Below are positions 12,260 through 29,642 of a DNA stretch of 62,145 nucleotides, one piece after another; position 1 is the stretch's first letter, and each line of letters starts with the position of its first letter. The position numbers and the translations under genes are program-made. The notes beneath the pieces were generated by a model. The model did no database searches and was not told where the DNA came from. It saw nothing but the letters and a program-made list of their open reading frames with translations. Source of the DNA: Desulfobacteraceae bacterium (GTDB lineage: Bacteria; Desulfobacterota; Desulfobacteria; Desulfobacterales; Desulfosalsimonadaceae); contig JAIPES010000004.1 of assembly GCA_021737045.1 (NCBI GenBank), positions 1 through 62,145 of the forward strand, read 5' to 3'.

Positions 12260-12346
12260 ACCAAACTATTGCAGAAAGGTTTGGAAGCCGCTGCGGAAAA
12301 ACCCGCAGGCAAACACCTGGAAATATCAACCACGAGGGAAAATACC

Positions 12347-12997
12347 ATGAAAATGAAGCTGATGCTTATAGACAATCAGTTGGTGGTGCGCCAGGGCCTC
12401 AAGGCGCTACTGGCAAAAGAGCCGGACATGGAAGTAGTGGCCGAAGCCGCAGAAACCTCAGAAAGCCTGGATTTGATCAAAAAACACCGGCCCGACGTGG
12501 TTGTTGCTGAAACCGCCACCGCCCGCTCCGGTGGCACGGATACCGTTCGAATGATTCAGGCAGCCGGGGTGGCCTGCCAGATCCTGATCCTGACAGGCCA
12601 AAGCAGCAAGAGCCTTGTACGTGAGGCGCTTCAGGCAGGCGCCCGTGGCTATGTCCTGAAAACAGCTTCTTATTCGGAAGTTCTGACCGCCATTCGGTCC
12701 GTACAGCAGCAGTCCTACTACCTGAGCCCTGAAATCAGCGCTGAAATCATCCATACTTTTGTTAAAAAAAAGCAGAAAAATATGCAGGCAGAGCCATATG
12801 ACCAGCTTTCCAAGCGGGAACGCCAGGTATTCAAGCTCATTGCCGAGGGCAAAACCACAGATGAAATTGCAGACATGCTCACCATCAGCCCCAAGACCGT
12901 GGCCAAGCACCGGATGAACATCATGGAAAAACTCCGGCTCAAAAACACGGCCACACTCGTTCGGTATGCGGCCCGAATCGGTATTCTCGACATTTGA
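12347..12997 (+). CDS. NarL-type response regulator with Glu at the phospho-site
   Basis: A receiver domain (about 1-118) and a LuxR-type DNA-binding domain (about 145-216, LSKRERQVFKLIAEG and ISPKTVAKHR). Aligned with the next gene, the acceptor position (PDVLLMD there) is PDVVVAE here, so Glu55 replaces Asp, and the conserved MP that follows is lost. Asp9, a Thr (ILTGQ) and Lys (VLKTA) are retained. Asp-to-Glu can mimic phosphorylation in some receivers, so it may be constitutively active or act without phosphorylation. ATG 12347 has GAGGG upstream; a longer reading from 12269 lacks one. Confidence 0.88.
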   Translation: MKMKLMLIDNQLVVRQGLKALLAKEPDMEVVAEAAETSESLDLIKKHRPDVVVAETATARSGGTDTVRMIQAAGVACQILILTGQSSKSLVREALQAGARGYVLKTASYSEVLTAIRSVQQQSYYLSPEISAEIIHTFVKKKQKNMQAEPYDQLSKRERQVFKLIAEGKTTDEIADMLTISPKTVAKHRMNIMEKLRLKNTATLVRYAARIGILDI

Positions 12998-13075
12998 TCC
13001 GTCAAAAACACAAAATCATTGTTTCCCCCGGCAATACCGGCCCGGGGGTTGGAAAACAGCAGAAAGAGAGAAATC

Positions 13076-13753
13076 ATGGCCAAAATCAAACTCATGCTTG
13101 CAGATCATCAGCCGATTGTCCGGGAAGGCATCAGAGAACTGCTCGAAAAGGAATCCGACATCAAGGTCTCGGCCGAGGCCGGCGAGGGAGCCCTTTGTTT
13201 CAAACGTCTCAGGGAGACCAAACCCGACGTGCTGCTCATGGATATTTCCATGCCAGGCATTGACGGCATTAACAGTATCCGGGAACTCAAAAAAATATCT
13301 GAAAAAACCGGCATTGTTATCCTGACCATGTATCAGAAGCGTTCCTATGTCCGGGAAGCACTCCATGCAGGGGTTATGGGCTATTTGCTGAAAACCAGTC
13401 CATATGAGGAAGTGCTTGGGGCCATCCGCGCGGCCGCAGAGCAGAAATATTATCTGAGCACGGAAATCAATGCAGACATCATTGACAACTATCTGAAAAA
13501 GGAAACCACCGAACCCTTTGCGAGCAAATATGATCTTCTCACAAAACGCGAACACATGATTCTGCGCTTTCTGGCCGAAGGCTACACAACCAATGACATT
13601 GCAATGATGCTGTCGGTAAGCCCCAAAACCGTTGCCAAGCACCGCACCAATCTCATGGAAAAACTCGAGATGAAAAATATGGCCACGCTGGTGCGTTATG
13701 CTATCAAGATCGGTGTGGTGGATGTGGAAAGTGATTACGGCTCCGGATTATGA
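13076..13753 (+). CDS. NarL-type response regulator, canonical receiver
   Basis: Paralogue of the preceding gene with an intact receiver: acidic residue in LADHQPIVREG, phospho-acceptor Asp56 in LLMDISMPGIDG, Thr in ILTMYQ and Lys in LLKTS. The C-terminal LuxR-type helix-turn-helix has LTKREHMILRFLAEG and VSPKTVAKHR. 225 residues from the ATG at 13076, which follows AGAAAGAGAG. No kinase gene is adjacent. The stop overlaps the miaA start (ATGA). The two regulators probably arose by tandem duplication and may dimerise or compete for sites. Confidence 0.9.
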   Translation: MAKIKLMLADHQPIVREGIRELLEKESDIKVSAEAGEGALCFKRLRETKPDVLLMDISMPGIDGINSIRELKKISEKTGIVILTMYQKRSYVREALHAGVMGYLLKTSPYEEVLGAIRAAAEQKYYLSTEINADIIDNYLKKETTEPFASKYDLLTKREHMILRFLAEGYTTNDIAMMLSVSPKTVAKHRTNLMEKLEMKNMATLVRYAIKIGVVDVESDYGSGL

Positions 13754-14785: not shown

Positions 14786-16447
14786 TCAGGCAGCCAGACT
14801 GATGGCGGCCTCTGCGGTTTTGCGCAGCTCCTCTGGTGTAAAGGGCTTGTGCAGGTAATCGTAAATGCCCAGACGCGCACTTTCCTTTGCGCTTTCAATG
14901 CTGGCATAGCCTGTGATAATGATCACTTTTGCGCTTGGCTGCTTTTGCCTTACCGCCTCAAGCAGTTCCAGGCCCTTGACCCCCGGAATTTTCAGGTCAA
15001 GCAGTACCAGGTCATAGGCGCCGGCCTCAAGCTGGTCCAGTGCTTCGTCCCGGGTGACAGCCTGTTTTACGGCATAGCCCTTTTTTGCCAGTATTTTCCT
15101 GACGTTTTTGGAAATATAGGGCTCATCATCAATGACCAGTACATTTTCCCCCGCTGCCTGACCGGGAAACCCAATCACCTCGGCATCGGATCGGGCCTGA
15201 TTTTCTTTCATCATGGCCTGGAACCGCGCCTTTAGCTCCTCATAAGGCGGCACGGCATACCCGTTACGGTCCACGTTAGCGGCATATTCAGCTCCGGTCA
15301 GGGCGGCGACTTCCTCATAGTCAAAAGGCATGTCCACACCGATCAGGGTTTTGATTGCCGGGCCCCTGGACTTCTTTGCAGCCTTGCCCTTTTTCCCCTT
15401 TTTCTGAGGACATTCCTGGGTTTTCATGCCGGCCTTGCAGGTTTTGCCCAGCTTTTTGAAGATATCGCATACCATCTGTCCCATTTCGCAGTAATTTTCC
15501 GACTTTTTGACTTCAACCACCGGCATGTCGGAACTGCCCAGGGTTTTGGTATATTCTTCACCGGTATATTTGGAAACCTCATCCATGTCAAAGGGCTGCT
15601 CCGAGCCGGTCCGGGCCTGTTTGCGGCCGGTGGTTTCAGCCATCTGCGCCTTTAACTGCTCATATGGCATAAAGGCGATTTCACCGGACTGCAAATTGCT
15701 GACATACTCCGGACCGGTCAGGGCCGCGACTTCCTCGTAGTTAAACGGCATGTCAATGCCCACGAGCTTTTTCACGGACGGGGCCTTGCCGGTTTTAGCG
15801 GATTTTGCCTTTTTTCCCTTTTTCTGGGGGCATTCCTGGGTTTTCATGCCGGCCTTGCAGGTCTTGCCCAACTTTTTGAAGATATCGCATACCATCTGCC
15901 CCATTTCGCAGTAATTTTCCGGCTTTTTGACTTCCACCACCGGCCTGTCCGAACGGCTCAGGGTATTGACGTAATCCTCTCCGGTATACTTGGCCACCTC
16001 TTCTGCGTCAAAGGGCATATCCAGGTCGATCACGTTGATCTGCCGCTTTACCTCCTCAGGAGTCGGCGCTTCGGCAAGCTTTTCAGAAGCCGCCAGGTTG
16101 ATTGTTTCCCGCAGCTCATCCGGGGTAAACGGCTTGGTGATGTAGTCCAGGGCTCCGAGCTGGATAGCCTTGACAGCCGTGTCCGTGGACCCGTATGCGG
16201 TCATGATCAGGGCCTTGGTCAGGGGCCATTCGGTTTTGACCTGCTTTAACAGCTCCAGGCCGTTCATCCCGGGCATGACCATGTCAGAAAGCATCAGGGC
16301 AAACGGTTCTCTGGACAGCTTCTCCAGGGCCTCCTGACCACTCTGGGCCAGTTCCACTTCATAATTGTTTTTGGCCAGGATTTTTTTCACATTGTCGCAA
16401 ATGTGTTTTTCATCGTCCACCACAAGGACTTTTTGCTTTTCGGTCAT
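14786..16447 (-). CDS. Double-receiver protein with duplicated Cys-rich linker
   Basis: 553 residues. Receiver 1 (1-122; DD at 11-12, Asp55, Lys105) and receiver 2 (434-550; Asp484, Lys534) both have intact phosphorylation residues. Between them is an exact two-fold tandem repeat of 140 residues (141-280 and 281-420). Each unit holds a QPFD/DMPFD-EEV-x-x-YTG-EY segment, a Cys-rich basic segment (NYCEMGQMVCDIFKKLGKTC, with further Cys in QECPQKKGKK) and a second DMPF-YEEVAALTG-EY segment ending YEELKA. No DNA-binding or enzymatic output is seen. It lies downstream of the kinase/NtrC pair but has its own sigma-54-type promoter. It may be a phosphorelay or scaffold protein; the linker family is unknown to me. 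Confidence 0.85.
   Translation of the reverse strand: MTEKQKVLVVDDEKHICDNVKKILAKNNYEVELAQSGQEALEKLSREPFALMLSDMVMPGMNGLELLKQVKTEWPLTKALIMTAYGSTDTAVKAIQLGALDYITKPFTPDELRETINLAASEKLAEAPTPEEVKRQINVIDLDMPFDAEEVAKYTGEDYVNTLSRSDRPVVEVKKPENYCEMGQMVCDIFKKLGKTCKAGMKTQECPQKKGKKAKSAKTGKAPSVKKLVGIDMPFNYEEVAALTGPEYVSNLQSGEIAFMPYEQLKAQMAETTGRKQARTGSEQPFDMDEVSKYTGEEYTKTLGSSDMPVVEVKKSENYCEMGQMVCDIFKKLGKTCKAGMKTQECPQKKGKKGKAAKKSRGPAIKTLIGVDMPFDYEEVAALTGAEYAANVDRNGYAVPPYEELKARFQAMMKENQARSDAEVIGFPGQAAGENVLVIDDEPYISKNVRKILAKKGYAVKQAVTRDEALDQLEAGAYDLVLLDLKIPGVKGLELLEAVRQKQPSAKVIIITGYASIESAKESARLGIYDYLHKPFTPEELRKTAEAAISLAA
15188..16027 (-). repeat. Two tandem 420-bp coding repeats
   Basis: Unit 1 spans 15608-16027 and unit 2 spans 15188-15607, each encoding 140 residues in register. 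The Cys-rich segment is nearly identical at DNA level (for example around 15375-15510 and 15795-15930), which points to a fairly recent duplication or ongoing gene conversion. Confidence 0.88.
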
Positions 16448-16825
16448 GACAGCCTCCTTTTGCGCCGGCTTGCCGGCGGTTTATAAAAGAATCAATGTTA
16501 ATGTGTTATTTGTTTTCAAACTTTTGATTCCAAAGATGCAGGTTGCATGCCAAAACCCCATACACATTATAACTTTCTGAATTATAAAATAAAAATTTAA
16601 AACCAAAGTTATTTTTCAGTGAAAACTGAAGCTGTTGTGCATACACGCAAAGCCCGGCCTGAACAGGGAAAACAAAAAGGCCCGATACAGATAAAAGGCG
16701 TCATTGCGGGCTCCGCAAGGTGCCAACAGCAACCCGCTGCTCAGGCAAATGCACACAAAACAAGATGTATAAAAAAAATAGGCAGGTGTATAATGGACAG
16801 CAGCAACGCGTACACGGCAGAAAAG
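16448..16825. other. Intergenic region upstream of the double-receiver gene
   Basis: A 378-bp gap between the double-receiver start (minus) and the NtrC-like stop. It is AT-rich around 16560-16620 and carries a sigma-54 box at 16537-16552. I see no credible gene; the 184-codon plus-strand frame starting at 16619 is the antisense shadow of the NtrC-like gene. Confidence 0.55.
16537..16552 (-). promoter_or_regulatory. Sigma-54 (-24/-12) promoter of the double-receiver gene
   Basis: Minus-strand TGGCATGCAACCTGCA matches the consensus TGGCAC-N5-TTGCA at GG(-24) and GC(-12) with exact 10-bp separation. The predicted start site is about 75-80 bp before the ATG at 16447. The adjacent NtrC-type activator is an obvious candidate regulator. 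Confidence 0.7.
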
Positions 16826-18244
16826 CTATCCGGAAGAAGGCCTGATGCTGTATTTCTTCATCAGATTCTGGAAATTGGGCCGCTGCATTCCTGTCTGGCG
16901 AGCTGCCCTGGAAATGTTCCAGTCGTTTTGCTCCAGGGCATTGAGCAGAAAATTTTTCTCCACCTTGGCCACGGCCTTCCGGCGGATTTCCTTTTTGATC
17001 CGGATCAGTTCCGCATTGGTCTCGGGCACGCATTCCATGAGGCGCTCAATGTCATCGATATCACTGAGATGGGGCAGGTCCTGAATGGTGATGGTATCGG
17101 TTTCACACAAAATCACCGCACGTTCAATGACATTTCGCAACTGCCGGACATTTCCCGGCCAGTGGTAGCTTAAAAGGCGGCTGGCGGCTTCCGGGTCAAA
17201 TCCGGAAATGGATTTTCCCCGCTGATTGTTGAGCTGAGCCAGAAAATGATAGGCAATGGGCAGAATATCGCTTTTGCGCTCCCGCAATGGAGGCAGGTAA
17301 ATGGGGTAAACAAAAATCCGGTAGTAAAAATCCTCACGAAACGATTTCTCCGCCACCATCTGGTTTAACTCCCGGTTGGTGGCAAAAATCAGCCGCACAT
17401 CCACTTGGCGTCGGGCGGTATCGCCCAGGGGCAGAAACTCCCGGGTATCTAAAAACCGAAGCAGCTTGCCCTGGATATCCGGTGTGGTGTTGCTGATTTC
17501 ATCAAGAAACACAGTGCCGCCGTCAGCCAGCTCAAAGATGCCGGATTTGTCTTTTTGCGCGTCAGTAAAAGCGCCTTTGCGGTATCCGAAAAGTTCGCTT
17601 TCCAGGAGACTGCCACTTAGGGTGCCGCAGTCCACCCCGAAAAAAACCTTGTCATGCCGGCCGCTGTTGGCATGGATCGCCCGTGCCACAAGCTCCTTTC
17701 CAGTGCCGCTTTCGCCTGATAGCAAAACCGTGGCATCGGTATCGGCCACCTTCTGAATCATGCTGATGACCTTGCGGATCTGCGGGCTGCTGCCAATGAG
17801 CTGGTGAGACAGCCTGGGCATGTGCGGATAGGGTTCCTGCATCAGCCGGCGGTTCTGCCGGACAATTTTTTGCTGCTCCAGGGCGTCTGCCACCACCTGC
17901 CGCAATTCATCCGGGGTAAAAGGCTTGGGCAGGTAGTCAAAAGCACCGGTTTTCATCAGTTCCACCGCTGAAGAAACGCTGGCATAACCGGTGATCACAA
18001 TGACCATGGTTTCCGGATGGTTCTCCCGAAGCCACTTTAACACCTCCGGGCCTCCGATGCGGCCCATTTTCACGTCCGTGATCACCACATCGTAGCTTTT
18101 CTCCGCCAGCTTTTCCAGGGCACTGCGCCCGTCCAGCACGTACTCGATCTCATATGCCTGCTTTGACAGAATTTTCCGGCAGTTTCGGCAAATATGCACC
18201 TCATCGTCAACAATGAGTATCCGGGGCGCTTTTTGCTCGCTCAT
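16826..18244 (-). CDS. Sigma-54-dependent response regulator (NtrC family)
   Basis: Three domains in 472 residues: receiver (1-120, Asp57 in VVITDVKM, Lys107 in LPKPF), AAA+ sigma-54 activator (about 145-375, Walker A GESGTGKE at 177, Walker B GGTVFLDEIS at 242) and a C-terminal Fis-type helix-turn-helix (LNALEQNDWNISRAARQTGM). The sigma-54 contact loop reads GAFTDA rather than the usual GAFTGA, a variant also seen in other deltaproteobacterial activators; its effect here is untested. The start overlaps the stop of the upstream kinase gene by 4 bp, so the two form a two-component pair. Likely targets are its neighbours, including the sigma-54 box at 16537. Confidence 0.93.
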   Translation of the reverse strand: MSEQKAPRILIVDDEVHICRNCRKILSKQAYEIEYVLDGRSALEKLAEKSYDVVITDVKMGRIGGPEVLKWLRENHPETMVIVITGYASVSSAVELMKTGAFDYLPKPFTPDELRQVVADALEQQKIVRQNRRLMQEPYPHMPRLSHQLIGSSPQIRKVISMIQKVADTDATVLLSGESGTGKELVARAIHANSGRHDKVFFGVDCGTLSGSLLESELFGYRKGAFTDAQKDKSGIFELADGGTVFLDEISNTTPDIQGKLLRFLDTREFLPLGDTARRQVDVRLIFATNRELNQMVAEKSFREDFYYRIFVYPIYLPPLRERKSDILPIAYHFLAQLNNQRGKSISGFDPEAASRLLSYHWPGNVRQLRNVIERAVILCETDTITIQDLPHLSDIDDIERLMECVPETNAELIRIKKEIRRKAVAKVEKNFLLNALEQNDWNISRAARQTGMQRPNFQNLMKKYSIRPSSG

Positions 18245-19674
18245 TCTTCGGAAACCCCTTTCACCGGCAGGGTAATGGTAAATCGGGTGCCGCTGCCGGG
18301 CCTGCTGGAAACCTCGATGTTGCCGCCGTGCTGCTCCACAATGCTGTGAGCGATGGAAAGCCCCAAACCGGTACCAATTTCACGGGTGGTGAAAAACGGA
18401 TCAAATATTTTTTCAAGATCCTGTTTTTCAATACCCTTGCCGGTATCCGTGACATGGATGGCAATTGTATCTGCTGCCGGGTCATAAGCCGTGGAAAGCA
18501 TAATGCGTCCCCCGGCCCCGGTGGCTTCCACCGCATTGAGCGTCAGGTTGATCAGCAGCTGCTGGATCTGTTCCTTGTCCACATAAATCCGGGGCAGATC
18601 ATCGGGCAGATCCGACTCAATGGTGATATCATTGAATTCCGCCTGTTTTTTGGTCAGGTAGATGCTTTCCCGGATAATGGCATTGATATCCTGGAGCTTC
18701 TGCATGGGCTTGGTCTGGCGGGCGAAATCCAGCAGACTTTGCACGATTTTCCGGCACCGCTGGGCTTCGCTGGAAATGATCCGGAGTTCTTCATGCATTT
18801 CATTTTCCGAATCCAGATCTTCCTGGAGCATCATGGCGGAAGTCATGATGGTGGTCAGCGGATTGTTGATTTCATGGGCAATACCGGCTGACAGCCGACC
18901 GATGGACATCAGCTTTTCCTGCTGCATCTGGGCCTTCTGAACCTTGATCTCCGGGGTGATGTCGCGCAGGATTTCTATAACACCGATGATTTCCTCATCA
19001 TTGTTTAAGGGATAACAGGAAATGGCATAATAGATCTCGTTGTTGTCCTGATCCAGGTGAACATGGGTGGTCATGCAGGGTTCATTTTTCTTATACACCT
19101 CTGCCAGGGGACAGGGATGATTTTTGCCGCTGCAGGGCTGATCCAGGTGATGGCCCACCTGATAGCAGAACCGGCCGATTACGTCCTGGCTGGTTCTGCC
19201 AAGCTTTTTCATCATGGCCTCATTCATGTCCACGACCCGGTAATCCTTGTCAATGACCATGGCCTCTTCCTGAATAAACTGGTTCATCAGGACTTCATAG
19301 ACATTCTGTTTGTGGCCGGTCAGCAAGTCCGCCCCGTTTACCTTTTTGCAGGCGTCATCGATTTCCCAGAACAGCAGCGCCGTGGTATGGGCCAGGGCGT
19401 GCACGTGCTTTTTCTTCTTGCGCAAAATATCGTTATAAATCTCAAGATCGCCTGTGAGTTCAATGATCAGGTCAATATCGTTGCGCTCAAAAAGAGTGTT
19501 GTAATCGGCTGTGACATACAGGCCCCGTTCAGCGGCACGGATCAGCCCCGGGGCATTTTCGTTGATATCCGCCACGGCCACGACATTGAGGTCAATCATC
19601 TGAAAGGAATTTTCTTCCAGAAAATTCAGCAGATATAAACCACGAGTGCCGCCTCCCACAATGGCTACGTTCAT
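18241..19674 (-). CDS. Histidine kinase with N-terminal Rossmann NAD-binding domain
   Basis: 477 residues, no membrane helix. The N-terminus (1-120) is a dinucleotide-binding fold (MNVAIVGGGTRG, then VVAVADINENAPG, DLIIELTG) like that of Gfo/Idh or aspartate dehydrogenases. A PAS domain (about 125-240) holds a Cys/His cluster (Cys170, HH175-176, Cys181, Cys188, Cys200). HisKA follows with His267 (GIAHEINNPL), then the HATPase with N box (NLTLNAVEA), DTGKGI and GTGLGLSI. It pairs with the NtrC-type regulator and is divergent from the Hdr/Nuo cluster. I infer a soluble redox or NAD(H)-ratio sensor; the ligand is not proven. Confidence 0.9.
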   Translation of the reverse strand: MNVAIVGGGTRGLYLLNFLEENSFQMIDLNVVAVADINENAPGLIRAAERGLYVTADYNTLFERNDIDLIIELTGDLEIYNDILRKKKKHVHALAHTTALLFWEIDDACKKVNGADLLTGHKQNVYEVLMNQFIQEEAMVIDKDYRVVDMNEAMMKKLGRTSQDVIGRFCYQVGHHLDQPCSGKNHPCPLAEVYKKNEPCMTTHVHLDQDNNEIYYAISCYPLNNDEEIIGVIEILRDITPEIKVQKAQMQQEKLMSIGRLSAGIAHEINNPLTTIMTSAMMLQEDLDSENEMHEELRIISSEAQRCRKIVQSLLDFARQTKPMQKLQDINAIIRESIYLTKKQAEFNDITIESDLPDDLPRIYVDKEQIQQLLINLTLNAVEATGAGGRIMLSTAYDPAADTIAIHVTDTGKGIEKQDLEKIFDPFFTTREIGTGLGLSIAHSIVEQHGGNIEVSSRPGSGTRFTITLPVKGVSEE

Positions 19675-20111: not shown

Positions 20112-20498
20112 ATGACACAAGAAACAATCGGATCCGTACTGGTGGTCGGCGGCGGCATCTCGGGAATGCAGACCGCCCTGGACCTGGCTGACTCCGGATA
20201 TTACGTCTACCTTCTGGAAAAAAGCCCCTCCATCGGAGGGGTTATGTCCCAACTCGACAAGACCTTTCCCACAAACGACTGTGCAATGTGAATTATCTCG
20301 CCCAAACTGGTCGAGGTCGGCCGGCACCTGAATATCGAGCTAATCACATATGCGGATCTGGAAGCCGTTGAAGGCAAACCCGGAAATTTCAAAGTCAAGG
20401 TCAAAAAGCGGGCCCGGAGCATTAACATGGATCTGTGCACCGGATGCGGCGCGTGTGTTGAAAACTGCCCGGTTTCCCAAACCATCGCTGCAAATTAA
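20112..20498 (+). CDS. HdrA N-terminal fragment, selenoprotein (UGA at 20289-20291 = Sec60)
   Basis: 128 residues when the in-frame UGA is read as selenocysteine. The FAD-binding start [20 protein letters not shown], then [19 protein letters not shown], matches the NDCxxC region of HdrA (heterodisulfide reductase flavoprotein) with Sec in place of Cys; a first ferredoxin motif ([12 protein letters not shown]) closes the protein. It ends exactly where HdrA would continue; the missing C-terminal portion is encoded in the fusion at 22941. Reading past UGA keeps family similarity on both sides, so the codon is not a true stop. ATG 20112 follows GGAGAAGATT. Part of the electron-transfer cluster. 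SelA/B/C/D genes are not in the window. Confidence 0.87.
20307..20324 (+). promoter_or_regulatory. Candidate bacterial SECIS hairpin for the HdrA fragment
   Basis: Seven-pair stem CTGGTCG/CGGCCGG (two G-U pairs) with loop AGGT. The loop begins 23 nt after the UGA and contains GG at +24/+25, in the range expected for bacterial SelB-binding hairpins. Confidence 0.55.
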
Positions 20499-20549: not shown

Positions 20550-21032
20550 ATGGCATACAACAACGACATCGATTGGGAAAAAATAGACGACATTATTGAT
20601 GAATACAGCAGCGACAAAGAATCGCTGCTCATGATTTTGCAGGACATAAACGAACTGTATAACTTTGTTCCCCCGGAAACCATACCGGTACTGGCCCAAA
20701 AGCTAAATGTGCCAAAAAGCCTGATCTACAGTGTGGCCACCTTTTATAAGACCATCAGTCTTGAACCCCGGGGTAAATATATCGTCAATGTCTGTACCGG
20801 GACGGCCTGCCACGTCCGGGGAGCGGAAAAAATCATTGATGCCGTGCAGGACAATCTCCAAATCGATACCGGACAGACAACCCAGGACGGCCTGTTCACC
20901 CTGGAAACCGTTCGCTGCCTGGGCTGCTGTGCCGCCGGACCGGTTTTTACGGTAAACAAGAACATGCACGGCGGCCTGGATCGATCAAGTGCGTTAAACA
21001 TAATTGATGACTATAAGAAAAATGCCTCTTAA
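20550..21032 (+). CDS. nuoE: NuoE-like [2Fe-2S] subunit
   Basis: 160 residues, homologous to the 24-kDa subunit of complex I and to HndA of bifurcating NAD(P)-linked hydrogenases. The cluster ligands appear as CTGTACHVRGAE and TVRCLGCCAAGP (C-x4-C and C-x3-C). The N-terminal helical part (SDKESLLMILQDINELYNF) is typical. It accepts electrons from, or passes them to, the FMN subunit encoded next. No complex I membrane subunits are nearby, so this is a soluble NADH module. The ATG follows AAAAAAGGATTTCCCTGCC. Confidence 0.93.
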   Translation: MAYNNDIDWEKIDDIIDEYSSDKESLLMILQDINELYNFVPPETIPVLAQKLNVPKSLIYSVATFYKTISLEPRGKYIVNVCTGTACHVRGAEKIIDAVQDNLQIDTGQTTQDGLFTLETVRCLGCCAAGPVFTVNKNMHGGLDRSSALNIIDDYKKNAS

Positions 21033-21062
21033 CGGCATTGGTCACGGAGGTTGAACTCAGCC

Positions 21063-22916
21063 ATGGTTAAATTTGAGAATAAAGAGGCACTGGAATCCTA
21101 TATTCAAGAGCTCCAGGCAAAAGCCCAGAGCCCTGACAGGGGCCTGATCTCCCTGTGCTCCGGGCCCGGATGCATCATTCACAACAGTGATAAAATCCGT
21201 GACACCCTCACGGAAGAAATGGAAAAGCACGGGATTGCCGACAAATACGAAATCCGGCTGACCGGGTGCCACGGATACTGCGAGCAGGGACCCATCATGG
21301 TCATTGATCCGGGCGGTATTTTCTATCCCAAGGTGGAACTGGAAAACATCCCGCAGATTGTTGAAAACACCCTGGTCAACAATGAGCCGGCTGAAAAACT
21401 GCTTTTCAAGGACCCGGCAACCAAAAAACGCGTTGTCAAAGAAGAAGACGTACCGTTTTACAAGCTGCAGACCCGTTCGATTTTTGGCAAGAACCGCCTG
21501 ATTGATCCCAACAGCATTGACAGCTACCTGGCTGTGGGCGGCTACCAGAGCCTGACAAAAGCCCTGTTTGAAATGAAGCCCAAGGAGATCATCGCAGAGA
21601 TCAAAAGCGCCAACCTGCGGGGACGCGGCGGCGGCGGTTTTCCGGCGGCCATCAAGTGGGACTCCTGCAGCAGGCATAAAGGAGCCAAATACGTCATCTG
21701 CAATGCAGATGAAGGCGATCCCGGCGCATACATGGACCGCGGGCTGCTTGAAGGTAATCCGCATCTGATCATTGAGGGAATGCTCATCGGCGCCTTTGCC
21801 ATGGGTTCACATGAAGGCTACGTATATGTCCGCCACGAGTATCCCCTGGCCGTGGCCAACCTTGCCAAAGCCATTGACCATGCAAAGCAATACGGGCTGC
21901 TTGGCGAAGACATCCTGGGATCCGGCTTTGATTTTGACCTTCACATCAGCAAGGGCGGGGGCGCTTTTGTCTGCGGCGAATCCACTGCTCTGATGGCATC
22001 TCTGGAAGGCAAGCCCGGACGTCCCCGGGCCAAATATATTCACACGTCCGAGAAGGGTTTCCGCGACAGTCCCTCGAATTTAAACAACGTGGAAACCTGG
22101 GCCAATGTACCCTTAATCATAGACAAAGGCGCCCAGTGGTATGCCTCCATGGGGACTGACTACAGCAAGGGGACCAAGATTTTCTCCCTGGTGGGCAAGG
22201 TGGTCAACACCGGACTTGTGGAAGTACCCATGGGCACGACCCTGCGCGAAATCATTTTTGACATCGGCGGCGGCATTCCCAAAAAGAAACAATTCAAGGC
22301 CGTGCAGACAGGCGGCCCGTCCGGCGGCTGCATTCCCGAACAATTTCTTGACACCCCCGTGGATTTTGATGAACTGACAAAGCTTGGATCTATCATGGGT
22401 TCCGGCGGCATGATCGTCATGGACCAGGACACCTGCATGGTGGACGTGGCCCGCTACTTTATCGAATTTCTCATCGACGAATCCTGCGGCCAGTGCAACC
22501 CCTGCAGGGAGGGGCTCAAGCAGATGATGGCGGTATTGACCCGCATTTGCGAAGGAAACGGAAAACAGGGCGATATCGAGCTGCTTGAGGAACTCGGGAC
22601 CATGATGCAGAAATTTTCCCTCTGCGGCCTGGGCACATCCGCCCCCAACCCGGTCCTGACAACGATTTTATATTTCCGGGATGAATATGAAGCCCATATT
22701 TATGACAAAAAATGCCCGGCCGGGGTCTGCAAGCCCTTGTTTCACTATGAGATCGATGAAGAAGCCTGTACCGGATGCACCTTGTGCGCCAAAAAGTGTC
22801 CGCAGGAGGCCATTTCCGGGGAAAAGAAAGAACCCCATGAAATCGACCAGGAAAAATGCATTAAATGCGGCATTTGCTACGACATTTGTAAATTTGACGC
22901 CGTTGCCATTCGATAA
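21063..22916 (+). CDS. nuoF: NuoF-like NADH-binding FMN subunit (HndC type)
   Basis: About 617 residues. Domains: an N-terminal thioredoxin-like [2Fe-2S] domain (CSGPGC and GCHGYC), the FMN/NADH-binding core (NLRGRGGGGFPAAIKW, then CNADEGDPGAYMDR), the [4Fe-4S] site ESCGQCNPCREG, and a C-terminal pair of ferredoxin motifs (CTGCTLCAKKCP, CIKCGICYDICK). This longer layout is that of HndC/HydB subunits of electron-bifurcating enzymes rather than of complex I NuoF. I chose ATG 21063, 12 nt after GGAGG; an in-frame TTG at 21051 directly abuts the ribosome site. It is the NADH port of the cluster. Confidence 0.93.
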   Translation: MVKFENKEALESYIQELQAKAQSPDRGLISLCSGPGCIIHNSDKIRDTLTEEMEKHGIADKYEIRLTGCHGYCEQGPIMVIDPGGIFYPKVELENIPQIVENTLVNNEPAEKLLFKDPATKKRVVKEEDVPFYKLQTRSIFGKNRLIDPNSIDSYLAVGGYQSLTKALFEMKPKEIIAEIKSANLRGRGGGGFPAAIKWDSCSRHKGAKYVICNADEGDPGAYMDRGLLEGNPHLIIEGMLIGAFAMGSHEGYVYVRHEYPLAVANLAKAIDHAKQYGLLGEDILGSGFDFDLHISKGGGAFVCGESTALMASLEGKPGRPRAKYIHTSEKGFRDSPSNLNNVETWANVPLIIDKGAQWYASMGTDYSKGTKIFSLVGKVVNTGLVEVPMGTTLREIIFDIGGGIPKKKQFKAVQTGGPSGGCIPEQFLDTPVDFDELTKLGSIMGSGGMIVMDQDTCMVDVARYFIEFLIDESCGQCNPCREGLKQMMAVLTRICEGNGKQGDIELLEELGTMMQKFSLCGLGTSAPNPVLTTILYFRDEYEAHIYDKKCPAGVCKPLFHYEIDEEACTGCTLCAKKCPQEAISGEKKEPHEIDQEKCIKCGICYDICKFDAVAIR

Positions 22917-22940: not shown

Positions 22941-25900
22941 ATGATTACTTTCAAGCTGAACGGTCAGACGGTTCAAGGCGAGGAAGGCCAATATATTATC
23001 CAGGTAGCCGAGAACCACGGGGTCTACATCCCCACGCTCTGCGCCCACAAAACTCTTGAGCCCGCAGGCATGTGCCGGCTTTGTACGGTGGAACTCTTTG
23101 ACGGCCGCAGGACCAAATTTGTTACTGCCTGCAACTATCCCATCTGGGAGGGCATGGAGGTCCAGACAGACACGGAAACCGTGCATGAGGGGCGCAAGCT
23201 TATTGTTGAAATGCTCATGGCAAGGTGCGCTGACGTGCCGGTGATTCGGGAACTGGCCGAAAAATACGGAATTGAAAAGCCCAGATTCGAGCAGGAGCAC
23301 GAAACCTGCATTCTTTGCGGACTGTGTACCCGGATCTGTGAAAGAATGGGCAACAATGCCATCACTCTTACTGATCGGGGGTTGGATTTAAAAGTCGACA
23401 CCCCGTTTCACGTGCAAACCGATATCTGCCAGGCATGCGGCGCCTGCGCGTTTATGTGCCCCACCGGCCATATCACCCTGGATAAAATCAATGAGCTGAT
23501 CACTGCAAACAAGCCGCAAATCATCAAATCCGAATATGATGTGGGACTCAGGGGGCGCAAACCCATTTACGTGCCCTATCCCCAGGCTGTGCCCAATACC
23601 CCGGTCATTGACCGGGATGTGTGCATGCACTTTAAGACCGGCGGCTGCCAGATTTGCTCGGATATCTGTCCGGTCAACGCCATTGACCATTCCATGGAGG
23701 ACGAAACCATTGAGCTTGAAGTGGGCTCTGTTATACTGGCGCCCGGGTTTGAGCCGTTTGATCCGTCCTCCCTGGATTTTTACAATTACGATCACCCCAA
23801 CGTGATCACCTCCATGGAAATGGAGCGGATGCTCTCGGCATCCGGGCCCACGGGCGGGCACCTGATCCGCCTGTCCGACCACCAGGAACCCAAAAAAATC
23901 GCCTGGCTTCAGTGCGTCGGCTCCAGGGACATGAACCGGTGCAACAATGCCTATTGTTCATCGGTTTGCTGCATGTATGCCATCAAAGAGGCGGTTATCG
24001 CCAAGGAACATGCCGGCGACGCCCTGGACTGTTCGATTTTCTACATGGACATGCGCACCCCGGGCAAGGACTTTGAAAAGTTCTATGAAAGCGCCAGAAA
24101 CAACAGCGGGGTCAACTTCGTGCGCAGCCGGGTACATACCATCAACCCGGTTGCCGGCTCAGACGAACTCGAACTGCGATATGTCTCGGATAACGGCGAA
24201 ATCCTGACTGACCAATTTGACCTGGTGGTGCTTTCCATTGGCCTGCAGATTCCGCCCGAACTCGTGGAAATGTCCAGGAACCTGGGAATCGAACTTTCTC
24301 CCGGCAATTTCTGTGAAACCAATACCTTCACCCCGGTGGCCACCTCCAGGGAAGGCATATTTGCCTGCGGCGCCTTCCAGGGACCCAAGGACATTCCCCA
24401 GTCGGTCATTGATTCCAGCGCCGCAGCGTCGGCAGCCGCTGAAATCCTGTCCGATTCCCGCAATACGCGGACCAAAGAAAAAGAAATTGTCCCGGAGCGC
24501 AACGTGGGCGGGGAACGGCCCAGAATCGGCGTGTTTGTCTGCCGCTGCGGCATCAATATCGCCGGTGTTGTGGATGTCCCGGCGGTTGTGGAATACGCCA
24601 GTACCCTGCCCTTTGTGGAATATGTGGATGACAACCTGTTTTCCTGCTCCCAGGACACCCAGGAAAACATGGCCGCGATTATCGAGGAAAAAGGGCTAAA
24701 CCGAATTGTGGTGGCCGCCTGCACCCCCAAAACGCACGAGCCTCTGTTCCAGGAAACACTGACCGATGCCGGGCTCAATAAATACCTTTTTGAAATGACC
24801 AATATCCGCAACCAGGATTCCTGGGTGCACAAAAACAACCCGGCCCTGGCCACGGAAAAGGCCCGGGATCTGGTGCGCATGGCCGTGGCCAAGGTTGCCC
24901 GGATGGAGCCGTTAAAGGAATCCGAGCTATCGGTCAATCCGGCCGCAATGGTTGTGGGCGGCGGCATTTCCGGCATGGCAGCCGCCAAAAGCCTGGCTGA
25001 TCAGGGAATTGAAACCCATCTGGTGGAACAGACCGACCATCTCGGGGGCCAGGCGGTAAACCTCTATCACACGGCCAAGGGGGAATCGGTTGCCGAAAAC
25101 CTGGAAAATCTCATTTCCCAGGTCAAGAGCCATGACAAGATCAAACTTCACTTAAATACCCAGATTCAGAACGTGGATGGTTTTGTGGGCAATTTCAAAA
25201 CCATCATGCTTGAAAACGACCAGGAAGTGGAACTCGAGCACGGGGCCGCCGTTCTTGCCACGGGCGCTTCTCCCTATGAGCCCGCGGAATACGCCTATGG
25301 TCAGGATCAAAGGATTCTTACCAGCCTGGAACTGGACAGAAAGTTTCAAAAAGAGGATCCGGGCCTTGAAAAAATCAACAGCGCAGCTTTTATCCAATGC
25401 GTTGGATCAAGGGAGCCGGGCCGCATGTACTGTTCCCGGGTCTGCTGCACCCATTCCATTGAAAACGCCATTGAGCTCAAAAAACGCAACCCGGAAATGA
25501 ACGTCTATATCCTTTACCGGGATATCCGCACCTACGGGGAAAAGGAATACCTCTACAAGCAGGCGCGCCAGCAGGGCGTGATTTTCATCCGCTATTCCCT
25601 GGAAGACAAGCCGTCTGTCGAGGTCAAAGATGACAGCATTGCCATTACCGTCACTGACCACATCTTAAACCGGCCGGTTGAGCTCAACGTGGACCTGCTG
25701 ACCCTGGCCACGGCCATTATCCCGTGCAAGGATGAAGAACTGGCCAACTTCTTTAAGGTGCCCATGAATGAAGACGGATTTTTCATTGAGCGCCACGCCA
25801 AGCTGGGCCCTGCGGAATTTGCCACAGACGGCGTGTTTCTATGCGGTATGGCCCATTATCCCAAGCCGATCGACGAATCCATCGCCCAGGCAAAGGCAGC

Positions 25901-26195
25901 CGTGGCCAGGGCCATCACACTGCTGTCCCGGCAATACATTTACAGCAGCGGCACCATTGCCGAAGTGGATCCGGTCAATTGTGCGGCATGCGGCGTTTGC
26001 GTAGCTGTCTGTCCGTATTCAGCCCCGTCTTTTGCCGAGGAGGGCCGGTTTGCCGGCAAGGCGCAAATCAATCCGGCGCTTTGCAAGGGTTGCGGGCTCT
26101 GCGTGGCATCATGCCGCTCAGGCGCCATTCATCTCAAGGGATTTGACACGGACCAGATCATGTACCAGATCTTTGAAATGGACGAAGCAATATAA
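22941..26195 (+). CDS. NuoG N-terminus / HdrA C-terminal part / complete HdrA fusion
   Basis: 1084 residues. 1-80: [2Fe-2S] domain (Cys34, 45, 48, 64). 115-180: two [4Fe-4S] motifs (CILCGLCTRIC, CQACGACAFMCP), as in NuoG/HndD. 195-505: the C-terminal two thirds of HdrA (YVPYPQAVPNTPVIDRDVC, VILAPGFEPFD, CVGSRDMNRCNNAYCSSVCC), lacking the FAD-binding start supplied by the gene at 20112. 525-1084: a full second HdrA (VFVCRCGINIAGVVDV, FAD motif [19 protein letters not shown] near 671, CVGSREPGRMYCSRVCC, and terminal ferredoxins CAACGVCVAVCP and CKGCGLCVASC). It probably links the NADH module to one or two bifurcating flavins. I know no standard name for this fusion. Confidence 0.92.
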   Translation: MITFKLNGQTVQGEEGQYIIQVAENHGVYIPTLCAHKTLEPAGMCRLCTVELFDGRRTKFVTACNYPIWEGMEVQTDTETVHEGRKLIVEMLMARCADVPVIRELAEKYGIEKPRFEQEHETCILCGLCTRICERMGNNAITLTDRGLDLKVDTPFHVQTDICQACGACAFMCPTGHITLDKINELITANKPQIIKSEYDVGLRGRKPIYVPYPQAVPNTPVIDRDVCMHFKTGGCQICSDICPVNAIDHSMEDETIELEVGSVILAPGFEPFDPSSLDFYNYDHPNVITSMEMERMLSASGPTGGHLIRLSDHQEPKKIAWLQCVGSRDMNRCNNAYCSSVCCMYAIKEAVIAKEHAGDALDCSIFYMDMRTPGKDFEKFYESARNNSGVNFVRSRVHTINPVAGSDELELRYVSDNGEILTDQFDLVVLSIGLQIPPELVEMSRNLGIELSPGNFCETNTFTPVATSREGIFACGAFQGPKDIPQSVIDSSAAASAAAEILSDSRNTRTKEKEIVPERNVGGERPRIGVFVCRCGINIAGVVDVPAVVEYASTLPFVEYVDDNLFSCSQDTQENMAAIIEEKGLNRIVVAACTPKTHEPLFQETLTDAGLNKYLFEMTNIRNQDSWVHKNNPALATEKARDLVRMAVAKVARMEPLKESELSVNPAAMVVGGGISGMAAAKSLADQGIETHLVEQTDHLGGQAVNLYHTAKGESVAENLENLISQVKSHDKIKLHLNTQIQNVDGFVGNFKTIMLENDQEVELEHGAAVLATGASPYEPAEYAYGQDQRILTSLELDRKFQKEDPGLEKINSAAFIQCVGSREPGRMYCSRVCCTHSIENAIELKKRNPEMNVYILYRDIRTYGEKEYLYKQARQQGVIFIRYSLEDKPSVEVKDDSIAITVTDHILNRPVELNVDLLTLATAIIPCKDEELANFFKVPMNEDGFFIERHAKLGPAEFATDGVFLCGMAHYPKPIDESIAQAKAAVARAITLLSRQYIYSSGTIAEVDPVNCAACGVCVAVCPYSAPSFAEEGRFAGKAQINPALCKGCGLCVASCRSGAIHLKGFDTDQIMYQIFEMDEAI

Positions 26196-26699: not shown

Positions 26700-27659
26700 A
26701 TGAAATCGTATACAGATAAAATCAAGGAGATCGCAAAACGCCTTCTCAAGGAAGACAAGGTCGACATGGTCATCGGCTATCGAAAGGGCACTGTCCCGCT
26801 GATGCATCAGCCCTTTTTTGCCACCAGCGAAGGCGAAGTCGACAGCTTTGTATGGGACAGCAATTGCGGACTCAACCTGGCCAACTATATTACAGACCGC
26901 AAAGAGCGCATCGGCATTGTGGCCACCGGATGCAATTCCCGAAACATCGCTGTCCATGTCGTTGAAGGCAAAATACAGCGCGATCAGCTCTATATCATCG
27001 GGATTCCCTGCCAGGGCATGGTGGATCGCCATAAACTGGCCGCCATGGCAGAAGGAAATATCGCTTCCGTGGAAGAAGATGAAGACAAGGGCACCATTAC
27101 GATTTCCGGCCAGGGATTTTCAAAAAGTGTAGACAAAGCAGAGGTGCTCCAGGAAAACTGCTCCATCTGCGTGCACAGAAACCCGGTGCTCTGCGATGAA
27201 CTGGTGGCCGATGAAGTCACTGAGCAAACCCGGGAACAGGCCGACCCCTATGCCCGGGTCCGGGAAATCGAGGCCATGAGCCCGGACGATAAATGGGCTC
27301 ATTTTGACGACCTGCTCTCAGACTGCATTCGCTGCTACGCATGCCGCAATGCATGCCCCCTGTGTTACTGCCCCCAATGCTTTGTGGATGAGTCCAACCC
27401 TCAGTGGGTGGGCAAAAGCGTGGATCCCACAGACATTCGCACATTCCACCTTCTGCGCGCTTATCACTGCGCAGGGCGTTGCACGGATTGCGGCGCATGC
27501 GTCCGGTCCTGCCCGGTGGGTATCAATGTCCGGGACTTTACCAAAAAACTGGAAAAAGACTGCCTGGAACTCTATGGATGGGAAGCCGGGCTCAATACTG
27601 AGCAGCGGCCGCCCCTTGATACCTACAAACCCGAGGACCCCGAAGATTTCATCAAGTAA
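26700..27659 (+). CDS. FrhB/FlxC-like iron-sulfur protein
   Basis: 319 residues. The N-terminal half (VIGYRKGTVPLMHQPFF, IGIVATGCNSRNIAVHV, IIGIPCQGM, CSICVHRNPVLCD) resembles the FrhB/FdhB-type beta domain that binds flavin and a deazaflavin or pyridine nucleotide in other enzymes. The C-terminal half carries two [4Fe-4S] motifs (CIRCYACRNACPLCYC and CTDCGACVRSCP). In Flx-type clusters such a protein sits between FlxD and FlxB. It starts 2 bp after mvhD. I infer an electron-wiring subunit; flavin binding is not certain. Confidence 0.8.
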   Translation: MKSYTDKIKEIAKRLLKEDKVDMVIGYRKGTVPLMHQPFFATSEGEVDSFVWDSNCGLNLANYITDRKERIGIVATGCNSRNIAVHVVEGKIQRDQLYIIGIPCQGMVDRHKLAAMAEGNIASVEEDEDKGTITISGQGFSKSVDKAEVLQENCSICVHRNPVLCDELVADEVTEQTREQADPYARVREIEAMSPDDKWAHFDDLLSDCIRCYACRNACPLCYCPQCFVDESNPQWVGKSVDPTDIRTFHLLRAYHCAGRCTDCGACVRSCPVGINVRDFTKKLEKDCLELYGWEAGLNTEQRPPLDTYKPEDPEDFIK

Positions 27660-27701
27660 GTGCCGGGCAACCAATCATAAACGTTGACAAGGGCGATTAT
27701 C

Positions 27702-28781
27702 ATGAAAGTCATCAAGATTGACAAAAACGAATGGGCAAGCGGACTGGAAAAACTCCGCAGCGCCTACGAGCTGATCGGGCCGGTCAAGGAAAAGTTCTAT
27801 CATGCTTTCCAGCCTCTGGAATCCGGCCAACAGCCTGATATGGATTATATCAACACACGGGTTTCTCCGAAATACGTTATATATCCACAATCCGAGCTGA
27901 TCCTCGAGTGTTCCTTAAACGAAAACGATGAGGATTACAAAATCTATAAGGAGCCGGAAAAAGAGTATACGCCAAAAGCCATCCTCGGCATCCGGCCCTG
28001 TGACGCGGATTCATTCTCCCTGGTCCGGCGCAATTTTGACACGGAAGAATACAAGGACCCCTACTGGCTGCGGGCCTATGAGGCCACCACCTTTGTCGGG
28101 CTTGCATGTGACCAGCCATGTCCCACCTGCTTTTGCAGCAGCGCCGGATCAGGTCCTTACAGCGACAGCAACCTTGATATCCTTTTGGCGGACAACGGAG
28201 ATCACTACCTGGCCCGGGTGCTGACGGAAAAGGGCGAGAAACTGGCTGCAGCTGCCGGATGGAGCCAGGATGCCGGCGATGAGGCGGATCAGCAGATTGA
28301 TCAAAAGAAACAGGAAGCTGAATCAGCCATTCAGTCCAGAGTGAATACCGACAAACTGGCTTCTCAGTCCCTGCTGGATCTCTACGAGGCCACAGATGCC
28401 ATCTGGGAAAAAGAGGCTTTTTCCTGCATCAACTGCGGCACCTGCACCTTTGTCTGTCCCACGTGCTGGTGTTTTGATGTCCAGGACGAGGTCTCCGGAA
28501 AAAAGGGCTATCGCATCCGCAACTGGGACTCGTGCATGTATCCGCTTTTTACCTTGCATGCATCCGGTCACAATCCGCGGGGCACCAAGGTGGACCGGCT
28601 TCGCCAGCGATTTATGCACAAGCTGAAATATTATGTGGACAAGTACGAAAACGGGATCCAGTGCACCGGCTGCGGCCGCTGTGTTCAGCTGTGCCCGGTC
28701 AATATCGATATCCGCAGGATCTGCAACATGCTAAACAGCTATGATCCCGAATCCTGCACCTGCGAAGTAACGGCGTCTTAG
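27702..28781 (+). CDS. flxB: FlxB-like 4Fe-4S dicluster subunit
   Basis: About 359 residues, related to the beta subunit of sulfhydrogenase and FlxB. Visible are LGIRPCDADSFSLVRRNF and LACDQPCPTCFCSS, typical of the N-terminal domain, and two C-terminal [4Fe-4S] motifs (CINCGTCTFVCPTCWCFD and CTGCGRCVQLCPVNIDIR). It passes electrons between FlxA and the HdrA/MvhD core. ATG 27702 follows AAGGG; an upstream TTG at 27684 is less likely. It lies directly upstream of flxA. Confidence 0.85.
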   Translation: MKVIKIDKNEWASGLEKLRSAYELIGPVKEKFYHAFQPLESGQQPDMDYINTRVSPKYVIYPQSELILECSLNENDEDYKIYKEPEKEYTPKAILGIRPCDADSFSLVRRNFDTEEYKDPYWLRAYEATTFVGLACDQPCPTCFCSSAGSGPYSDSNLDILLADNGDHYLARVLTEKGEKLAAAAGWSQDAGDEADQQIDQKKQEAESAIQSRVNTDKLASQSLLDLYEATDAIWEKEAFSCINCGTCTFVCPTCWCFDVQDEVSGKKGYRIRNWDSCMYPLFTLHASGHNPRGTKVDRLRQRFMHKLKYYVDKYENGIQCTGCGRCVQLCPVNIDIRRICNMLNSYDPESCTCEVTAS

Positions 28782-28796
28782 CAAAGGGGGGTAGAA

Positions 28797-29642
28797 GTGG
28801 TCAATCCATATATTCCATACCCGGTTCGCATTGATGAAATCAAAACCGAAACCGAGGATAAAAGTTTAAAAACCTTTAAGTTCGTCTTTCTCAATCCCGA
28901 AGACGAAGAAAAATTCGCCTACCGGGCCGGCCAGTTTGCCGAGCTCAGCATTCCCGGCCTTGGCGAAATTCCCATCGGCATTGCCTCCTCTCCGGTTGAA
29001 AAAGGATTTGTGAAATTCACGGTTTTTAAAACCGGCAAGGTCACATCCTACCTCCATTCCATGAAGGAAGGCGATATCATGGGCATTCGCGGGCCGCTGG
29101 GCAACTGGTATCCCTGGGACCTGCTGGAGGGCAAAAACGTGGTGATCATCGGCGGAGGATTTGCCTTTACCACCCTTCGTTCTTCCATCATTTACATGCT
29201 GGATCCTGAAAACCGAAAAAAATTCAAGGACATCCATGTGATTTACGGCGCCCGCTCCCCGGGGATGCTGCTTTACAAGGAAGAACTCGAGCAATGGGCC
29301 GCCAGGGATGACCTGAACATGCACATTACCGTAGACGGCACAGATGACCCGGAATGGAAGCACCACACGGGGTTTGTACCCACAATCACCGAACAGGAGG
29401 CCCCTGCGGGAACCGAGGATACCTATGCCATTGTCTGCGGCCCGCCTGTAATGATCAAATTCACCCAGCCGGTTCTCGACAAGCTGGGATATACAAACGA
29501 CCGGATCATCATGTCTCTTGAAAACCGGATGAAATGCGGTATTGGCATGTGCGGACGCTGCAACATCGGCAAGGAGTTTGTATGCAAGGACGGTCCTGTA
29601 TTTACACTAAAGCAGTTAAACCAGACGCCCAAGGAATATTAA
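28797..29642 (+). CDS. flxA: FlxA-like FAD/NAD(P)-binding oxidoreductase subunit
   Basis: 281 residues of the ferredoxin-NADP reductase superfamily, as in FlxA and sulfhydrogenase gamma. The FAD-binding segment is FAYRAGQFAELSIPG, the NAD(P)-binding segment begins VVIIGGGFAFTTLRS, and a C-terminal [2Fe-2S] site is seen in NRMKCGIGMCGRCNIGKEFVCKDG (written here in parts: MKCGIGMCGRC, then FVCKDGP). Start is GTG with a GGGGGG ribosome site 6-7 nt upstream. It is the second pyridine-nucleotide port of the cluster. Confidence 0.9.
   Translation: MVNPYIPYPVRIDEIKTETEDKSLKTFKFVFLNPEDEEKFAYRAGQFAELSIPGLGEIPIGIASSPVEKGFVKFTVFKTGKVTSYLHSMKEGDIMGIRGPLGNWYPWDLLEGKNVVIIGGGFAFTTLRSSIIYMLDPENRKKFKDIHVIYGARSPGMLLYKEELEQWAARDDLNMHITVDGTDDPEWKHHTGFVPTITEQEAPAGTEDTYAIVCGPPVMIKFTQPVLDKLGYTNDRIIMSLENRMKCGIGMCGRCNIGKEFVCKDGPVFTLKQLNQTPKEY

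Follow-up and report, generated by a model that had tools for sequence, protein, structure and literature searches.

What does a response regulator do when it has two receivers and, between them, a pair of Cys-rich units in place of any known output domain? The question is raised by a 553-aa protein encoded as a single open reading frame at 14786..16447 on the minus strand of a 62,145-nt stretch of DNA from a Desulfobacteraceae bacterium (GenBank assembly GCA_021737045.1, contig JAIPES010000004.1, positions 1 to 62,145), the whole of which we refer to as the window. The ribosome-binding site AAGGAGG lies just 5' of the ATG, and the order of parts (receiver, unit 1, unit 2, receiver) leads us to call the product the REC-Cys4-REC protein. 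Our preferred answer, to which we assign a probability of roughly 45%, is that it acts as a phosphorylation-controlled, non-transcriptional effector of a NuoEF-HdrA complex within a dedicated two-component system.

Two conserved receivers flank a pair of Cys units

Above the Pfam cut-off the protein contains two Response_reg domains and nothing else: REC1 (aa 7-116; 16100..16429, minus strand) and REC2 (aa 436-545, approximately; 14813..15142, minus strand), separated by about 300 residues of Cys units. Across 95 aligned rows both receivers have the acidic pair, phospho-acceptor Asp, Thr and Lys of a response regulator (PF00072). D11, D12, D55, T83 and K105 of REC1 are identical in 95/95 rows. 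The corresponding residues of REC2 are D440, D441, D484, T512 and K534; the phospho-acceptor D484 never varies, nor do T512 and K534 in the rows that align there, and position 440 is Asp or Glu. An earlier reading of this DNA from its letters alone (the sequence-only reading) had described one open reading frame with two intact receivers around a repeat, and both the Pfam matches and the conservation of the receiver residues confirm this.

Unit 1 (aa 142-275; 15623..16024) and unit 2 (aa 282-415; 15203..15604), both on the minus strand, share a single layout consisting of an N-terminal mini-module, a Cys core, a Lys-rich tail and a C-terminal mini-module. A helix motif resembling DMPF-x2-EEVA-x2-TG-x-EY occurs twice per unit, as had been claimed, and a profile built on the second motif (the mini-module) finds four matches in the protein. 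Each core holds four Cys (C180, C187, C197 and C206 in unit 1; C320, C327, C337 and C346 in unit 2) and not the five initially counted, the motifs listed for that count (NYC, MVC, KTC, QEC) themselves giving four. The description of the units as two exact 140-residue repeats holds for their spacing, which is exactly 420 nt (140 codons), but not for their sequence: 89/134 residues are identical (66%), and the near-exact stretch is limited to residues 166-212 (45/47 identical), with sharp edges. Within this Cys segment the DNA of the two units differs at 10 of 141 nt, in agreement with the very high identity originally noticed there.

The Cys unit is a candidate new domain

The Cys quartet, C-x6-C-x9-C-x8-C, is complete in 113/113 units and keeps its 6-9-8 spacing in 112, an invariance of the kind expected of the ligands in an Fe-S or zinc protein. 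A profile search with the 140-residue unit, the check proposed alongside the sequence-only reading, matched no known domain; nothing in Pfam, in NCBIfam (beyond the receivers) or among PDB sequences corresponds to the unit. A PDB fold search with the model of the unit was likewise without a match, and is uninformative because the structure models are too weak beyond the short helices of the mini-modules: AlphaFold pLDDT is 65 for the unit, 61 for the whole protein and about 50 for the Cys core, and the models consist of short helices in the mini-modules only, with no usable core. With no match in any of these searches, the last of them made with a low-confidence model, we reject the possibility that the unit is a known domain under another name, and the earlier statement that the protein has no known output domain stands. 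A literature search found no description of the REC-Cys4-REC protein or its unit. On present sequence evidence, the Cys4 core together with the mini-module defines a testable new, undescribed domain.

The role initially proposed for the protein, a phosphorylation-controlled scaffold or a metal- or redox-sensing adaptor, fits its anatomy, its invariant receiver residues and its Cys quartet, and is overall only partly supported. One alternative arises from the Lys-rich tail, which spans about 19 aa with 36% Lys/Arg and a median net charge of +5: the protein might be a second transcription factor in which the Cys4 core forms a zinc module and the tail contacts DNA or RNA. We consider this improbable, as the charge of the tail falls to 0 in some members, the median net charge of the whole unit is -4, and the core has neither CxxC pairs nor any fold or family match.

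The duplication is old and its cores are homogenised

The family is largely confined to one order. Of 116 relatives searched, 27 have the protein. Named genomes, when scanned, yielded 80 loci, almost all Desulfobacterales-type where a group is named; 77 of them hold a Cys-containing unit, and these further members, nearly all from the order Desulfobacterales, have one or two units each. By mini-module profile search the protein is present in 38/194 genomes of the order, and in the phylum it is present in 7/297 genomes, two of the 7 lying outside the order. The aligned rows comprise 52 with two units and 43 with one, and between 4 and 11 changes in unit number have taken place in the family.

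The sequence-only reading took the tandem duplication to be recent and named an assembly artefact as the condition that would undo it. We reject both possibilities. The two-unit protein recurs in the assemblies of other species with 93-95% unit identity, the two-unit form of the window's clade being common to at least three species, and the duplication is therefore real. On the unit tree, units 1 and 2 of the window lie 0.61 apart while equivalent units of sister species lie 0.05-0.07 apart, so the duplication appears roughly ten times older than the splits between sister species. Since sister lineages within the window's family have one unit only, the duplication in the window's protein is probably a clade-level event; in other clades the split between the two units is much deeper than in the window's clade.

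Set against this age, the near-identity of the cores needs a separate explanation. Across 37 two-unit proteins, cores are 86% identical within one protein and 71% identical between species at equal position, whereas for C-terminal mini-modules the relation is reversed (55% within a protein, 65% between the unit 1s of different species). Synonymous codons of shared residues agree in 67% of cases when cores are pooled, compared with 52% expected from codon usage, and per-protein means of this agreement are 66% for cores and 54% for mini-modules (37 proteins, Wilcoxon p = 0.0008). The contrast between cores and mini-modules, together with the synonymous codons, leads us to reject purifying selection alone as a full explanation. 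Repeated gene conversion of the core appears to fit these patterns best, with a possible further contribution from co-selection of both cores.

An apparently dedicated sigma-54 circuit for the gene

The REC-Cys4-REC gene is preceded in its cassette by a Rossmann-PAS histidine kinase gene and then an NtrC-type sigma-54 regulator gene; the regulator gene directly precedes it in 55/64 loci, and the kinase gene lies upstream in 42/52. In the window the kinase (18241..19674, minus strand) is a soluble protein with a NAD_binding_3 Rossmann-like N-terminus (a match below the Pfam cut-off), a Cys-rich PAS domain, HisKA and HATPase, and is possibly an NAD(H) or redox sensor. Its PAS domain, behind the Rossmann-like stretch, has the conserved Cys-rich motif C...H....PCsG..hpCPL. 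The regulator (16826..18244, minus strand) is of REC-AAA-Fis type, and its sigma-54-contacting loop reads GAFTDA in place of GAFTGA; GAFTDA is found in 10/64 homologues and GAFTNA in 2, with the sigma-54 promoter of the target still conserved. Elsewhere in the window (12269-13753, plus strand) a pair of LuxR-type response regulators is encoded side by side, and no neighbouring kinase gene was recognised.

The window has a sigma-54 -24/-12 element, TGGCATGCAACCTGCA (16537..16552, minus strand), starting 105 nt 5' of the ATG of the REC-Cys4-REC gene. Scored against shuffled sequences, 70/73 loci have such an element 5' of the gene at p<=0.05, and 67/73 do at p<=0.01. At most 200 nt further upstream of the -24 element, 49/69 loci have the palindrome GTGTATA-N7-TATACAC, where 10.4 would be expected, and its start is mostly 91-96 nt from the -24 element. 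The gene thus has both the -24/-12 element and the spaced activator site of a sigma-54-dependent gene, with a single half-site in the window's clade: there the left half alone is recognisable, at the family spacing, and the right half is not, so the activator site has diverged in that clade. The half-site in the window, GTGTATG (16640..16646, minus strand), starts 94 nt upstream of the -24 element. The -12 element itself is nearly always (C/A/G)TGC and not the consensus TTGC (C 33, A 22, G 10 and T 4 across 69 loci).

The palindrome is close to exclusive to this promoter. Considering all loci, 48/50 strong copies lie at the REC-Cys4-REC promoter, and of the sites in 35 whole genomes about 23 fall at the target and about 12 fall elsewhere, compared with about 16 matches to a reversed control pattern, which places the palindrome at background outside its target. 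The regulator therefore looks dedicated, and the REC-Cys4-REC gene is apparently its essentially sole target. The sequence-only reading had overlooked both this sigma-54 promoter and the palindrome. Sigma-54 control of the seleno-HdrA/NuoEF genes was considered and rejected, with an element upstream of only 4/35.

Among about 55 receivers in the genome, REC1, REC2 and the receiver of the regulator are mutual best matches, a kinship which suggests that a single kinase phosphorylates all three. A feedback role would draw on the same kinship and on the apparent sole-target relation: the receivers would serve as a phosphate sink or competitor that drains the kinase and limits their own sigma-54 activation, with the Cys unit sensing metal or redox state for the loop. 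We judge this unlikely, because a sink needs neither invariant Cys4 units nor helical mini-modules, and because the co-occurrence with Fer2-HdrA described below would stay unexplained.

The protein is associated with NuoEF-HdrA genes

In the window the kinase-regulator cassette is divergent from a set of NuoEF-HdrA genes on the plus strand. These encode a small HdrA N-terminal fragment of 127 aa with an in-frame TGA (predicted selenocysteine; 20112..20498), a NuoE-like 2Fe-2S subunit (20550..21032), a NuoF-like FMN/4Fe-4S subunit (21051..22916) and a 1084-aa Fer2/4Fe-4S - HdrA fusion (22941..26195), beyond which lies a Flx-like set comprising a 4Fe-4S protein with weak FrhB-like stretches, a Fer4_22 protein and an FAD/NAD reductase (26700..29642). 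About 30 related loci have homologues of the seleno-HdrA fragment, about 80-92% identical and with the TGA at the same place, and these usually precede NuoE directly; in many loci the fragment sits between the REC-Cys4-REC gene and NuoE. The TGA falls at the known HdrA selenocysteine position and the fragment ends after a 4Fe-4S motif; standard annotation would miss or shorten it.

NuoE/F lie downstream of the REC-Cys4-REC gene on the same strand in 27/53 loci, and about half of the loci do not adjoin Nuo genes. Across genomes, the full-length Fer2-HdrA fusion (defined by a listed alignment starting at query residue 1) co-occurs with the REC-Cys4-REC protein, being found in 25/27 genomes with the protein and 8/89 without it (Fisher p = 2.5e-16, with shared ancestry ignored). 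The corresponding counts are 18/19 and 2/60 in genomes at least 90% complete, and 12/12 and 2/24 inside the window's family, the pattern recurring both inside and outside that family. The exceptions are two genomes (G067 and G115) that have the protein without full-length Fer2-HdrA and eight with the reverse, mostly incomplete assemblies. Co-occurrence and gene linkage support an association of the REC-Cys4-REC protein and its circuit with the NuoEF-HdrA complex, and the link to Hdr/Nuo genes that was originally suspected is strongly supported by both neighbourhood and co-occurrence in trans.

An association of this kind is also what an electron-carrier subunit would produce, with Cys4 units holding Fe-S clusters and the whole protein forming a phosphorylation-gated electron-transfer part of NuoEF-HdrA; the invariant Cys quartet and the occurrence of the same Cys unit in one or two copies would suit that role. 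Given that the Cys spacing is unlike known ferredoxin motifs, that the core model is of low confidence, and that the gene sits with regulators and not with the enzyme, on the other strand in the window, we think it an unlikely role, if narrowly the likeliest of the alternatives.

The mini-module recurs on GcvH-like proteins

Without the Cys core, the mini-module is found at the N-terminus of GcvH-like proteins (Pfam GCV_H), which occur as pairs at L115 (92-2039), L118 (8793-10720), L158 (6300-8197, minus strand) and L159 (7101-9237); this sharing too had escaped the sequence-only reading. At L118, L158 and L159 the GcvH-like genes come behind those for a related kinase and sigma-54 regulator. 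These three loci were tested for a sigma-54 promoter, and in 3/3 the first GcvH-like gene has a canonical one. At L158 the series continues with HdrA genes that are split at the Sec position, and at L115 HdrA lies nearby on the opposite strand. This parallel arrangement of GcvH-like circuits with HdrA genes leads us to the hypothesis that the mini-module may be a docking tag for HdrA-type partners. By eye, the usual lipoyl lysine position of the GcvH-like proteins appears to be Asp.

The mini-module shared with the GcvH-like proteins of seleno-HdrA loci, and the Cys4 units next to a seleno-HdrA gene, could be taken to indicate a maturation or assembly factor that supplies both the small seleno-HdrA and the complex with metal, an Fe-S cluster or selenium. 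Receivers would be unusual for such a factor, and there is no similarity to known maturation proteins; we regard this explanation as highly improbable.

Proposed working of the circuit

Computation supports the architecture, the invariant residues, the cassette, the promoter with its palindrome and the near-exclusivity of the latter, the receiver kinship and the co-occurrence. In our preferred reading, an effector of the NuoEF-HdrA complex, the soluble kinase probably reads NAD(H) or redox state, given its Rossmann-like NAD-binding stretch and Cys-rich PAS domain, and would phosphorylate the neighbouring sigma-54 activator, which would in turn switch on essentially one promoter, that of the REC-Cys4-REC gene. 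REC1 and REC2, being of the activator's receiver lineage, would probably be phosphorylated by the cassette kinase as well. Phosphorylation would then change the contact of the mini-modules and Cys4 units with the electron-bifurcating NuoEF/HdrA complex, the Cys4 units serving either as a thiol switch or as a binding site for a metal or Fe-S cluster, and the protein would thereby tune electron flow post-translationally. We infer the phosphorylation by the cassette kinase, the metal or redox chemistry, a direct contact with the enzyme and the direction in which the protein affects it.

A bolder version, which we hold to be somewhat doubtful, would give the response regulators an output of a new kind: a Cys4 cluster module, gated by phosphorylation and made on demand by a dedicated sigma-54 regulator, that switches an electron-bifurcating NADH/HdrA enzyme directly, with the mini-module as a general HdrA docking tag found also on the GcvH-like proteins.

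Little is known about the post-transcriptional control of flavin-based electron bifurcation in anaerobes. If the REC-Cys4-REC protein acts on NuoEF-HdrA, then in marine sulfate reducers, a widespread group, a two-component signal would be coupled directly to the redox chemistry by which they conserve energy. The gene also provides a clean one-promoter sigma-54 circuit and a marker that ties regulators to one enzyme complex.

Comparison with known systems

On the enzyme side, the closest comparison is with FlxABCD-HdrABC and other HdrA-based electron-bifurcating complexes (Flx-Hdr is cited in PMC10553843), including the selenocysteine-containing Hdr of Desulfobacterium autotrophicum (PMC2702500). 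As in these HdrA complexes, the genes associated with the REC-Cys4-REC protein are NADH- and HdrA-based and include a predicted Sec-containing HdrA part; they differ in comprising NuoE, NuoF and a Fer2-HdrA fusion, the 127-aa seleno-HdrA fragment being separate. In the literature on HdrA-based complexes, we found no described complex that includes a REC-Cys4-REC protein.

The cassette resembles the NtrC-type sigma-54 two-component systems of sulfate reducers, which have been mapped in Desulfovibrio vulgaris (PMC3333781), in that a histidine kinase and a sigma-54 response regulator are paired with a nearby sigma-54 promoter. It differs from them in that the single target encodes another receiver protein with an undescribed domain.

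For the protein itself, the nearest counterpart is FrzZ of Myxococcus xanthus, a tandem (dual) response regulator in a chemosensory motility pathway (PMC4546325). Both have two receivers and no classical output domain, and FrzZ serves as the output or amplifier of one kinase system; for the REC-Cys4-REC protein a corresponding kinase pairing is proposed from receiver kinship and gene order. FrzZ differs from it in three respects, since the REC-Cys4-REC protein has Cys4 units between its receivers, a sigma-54-driven gene and a redox-enzyme context. Judged by its receivers, the REC-Cys4-REC protein is a response regulator, with a partial likeness to FrzZ.
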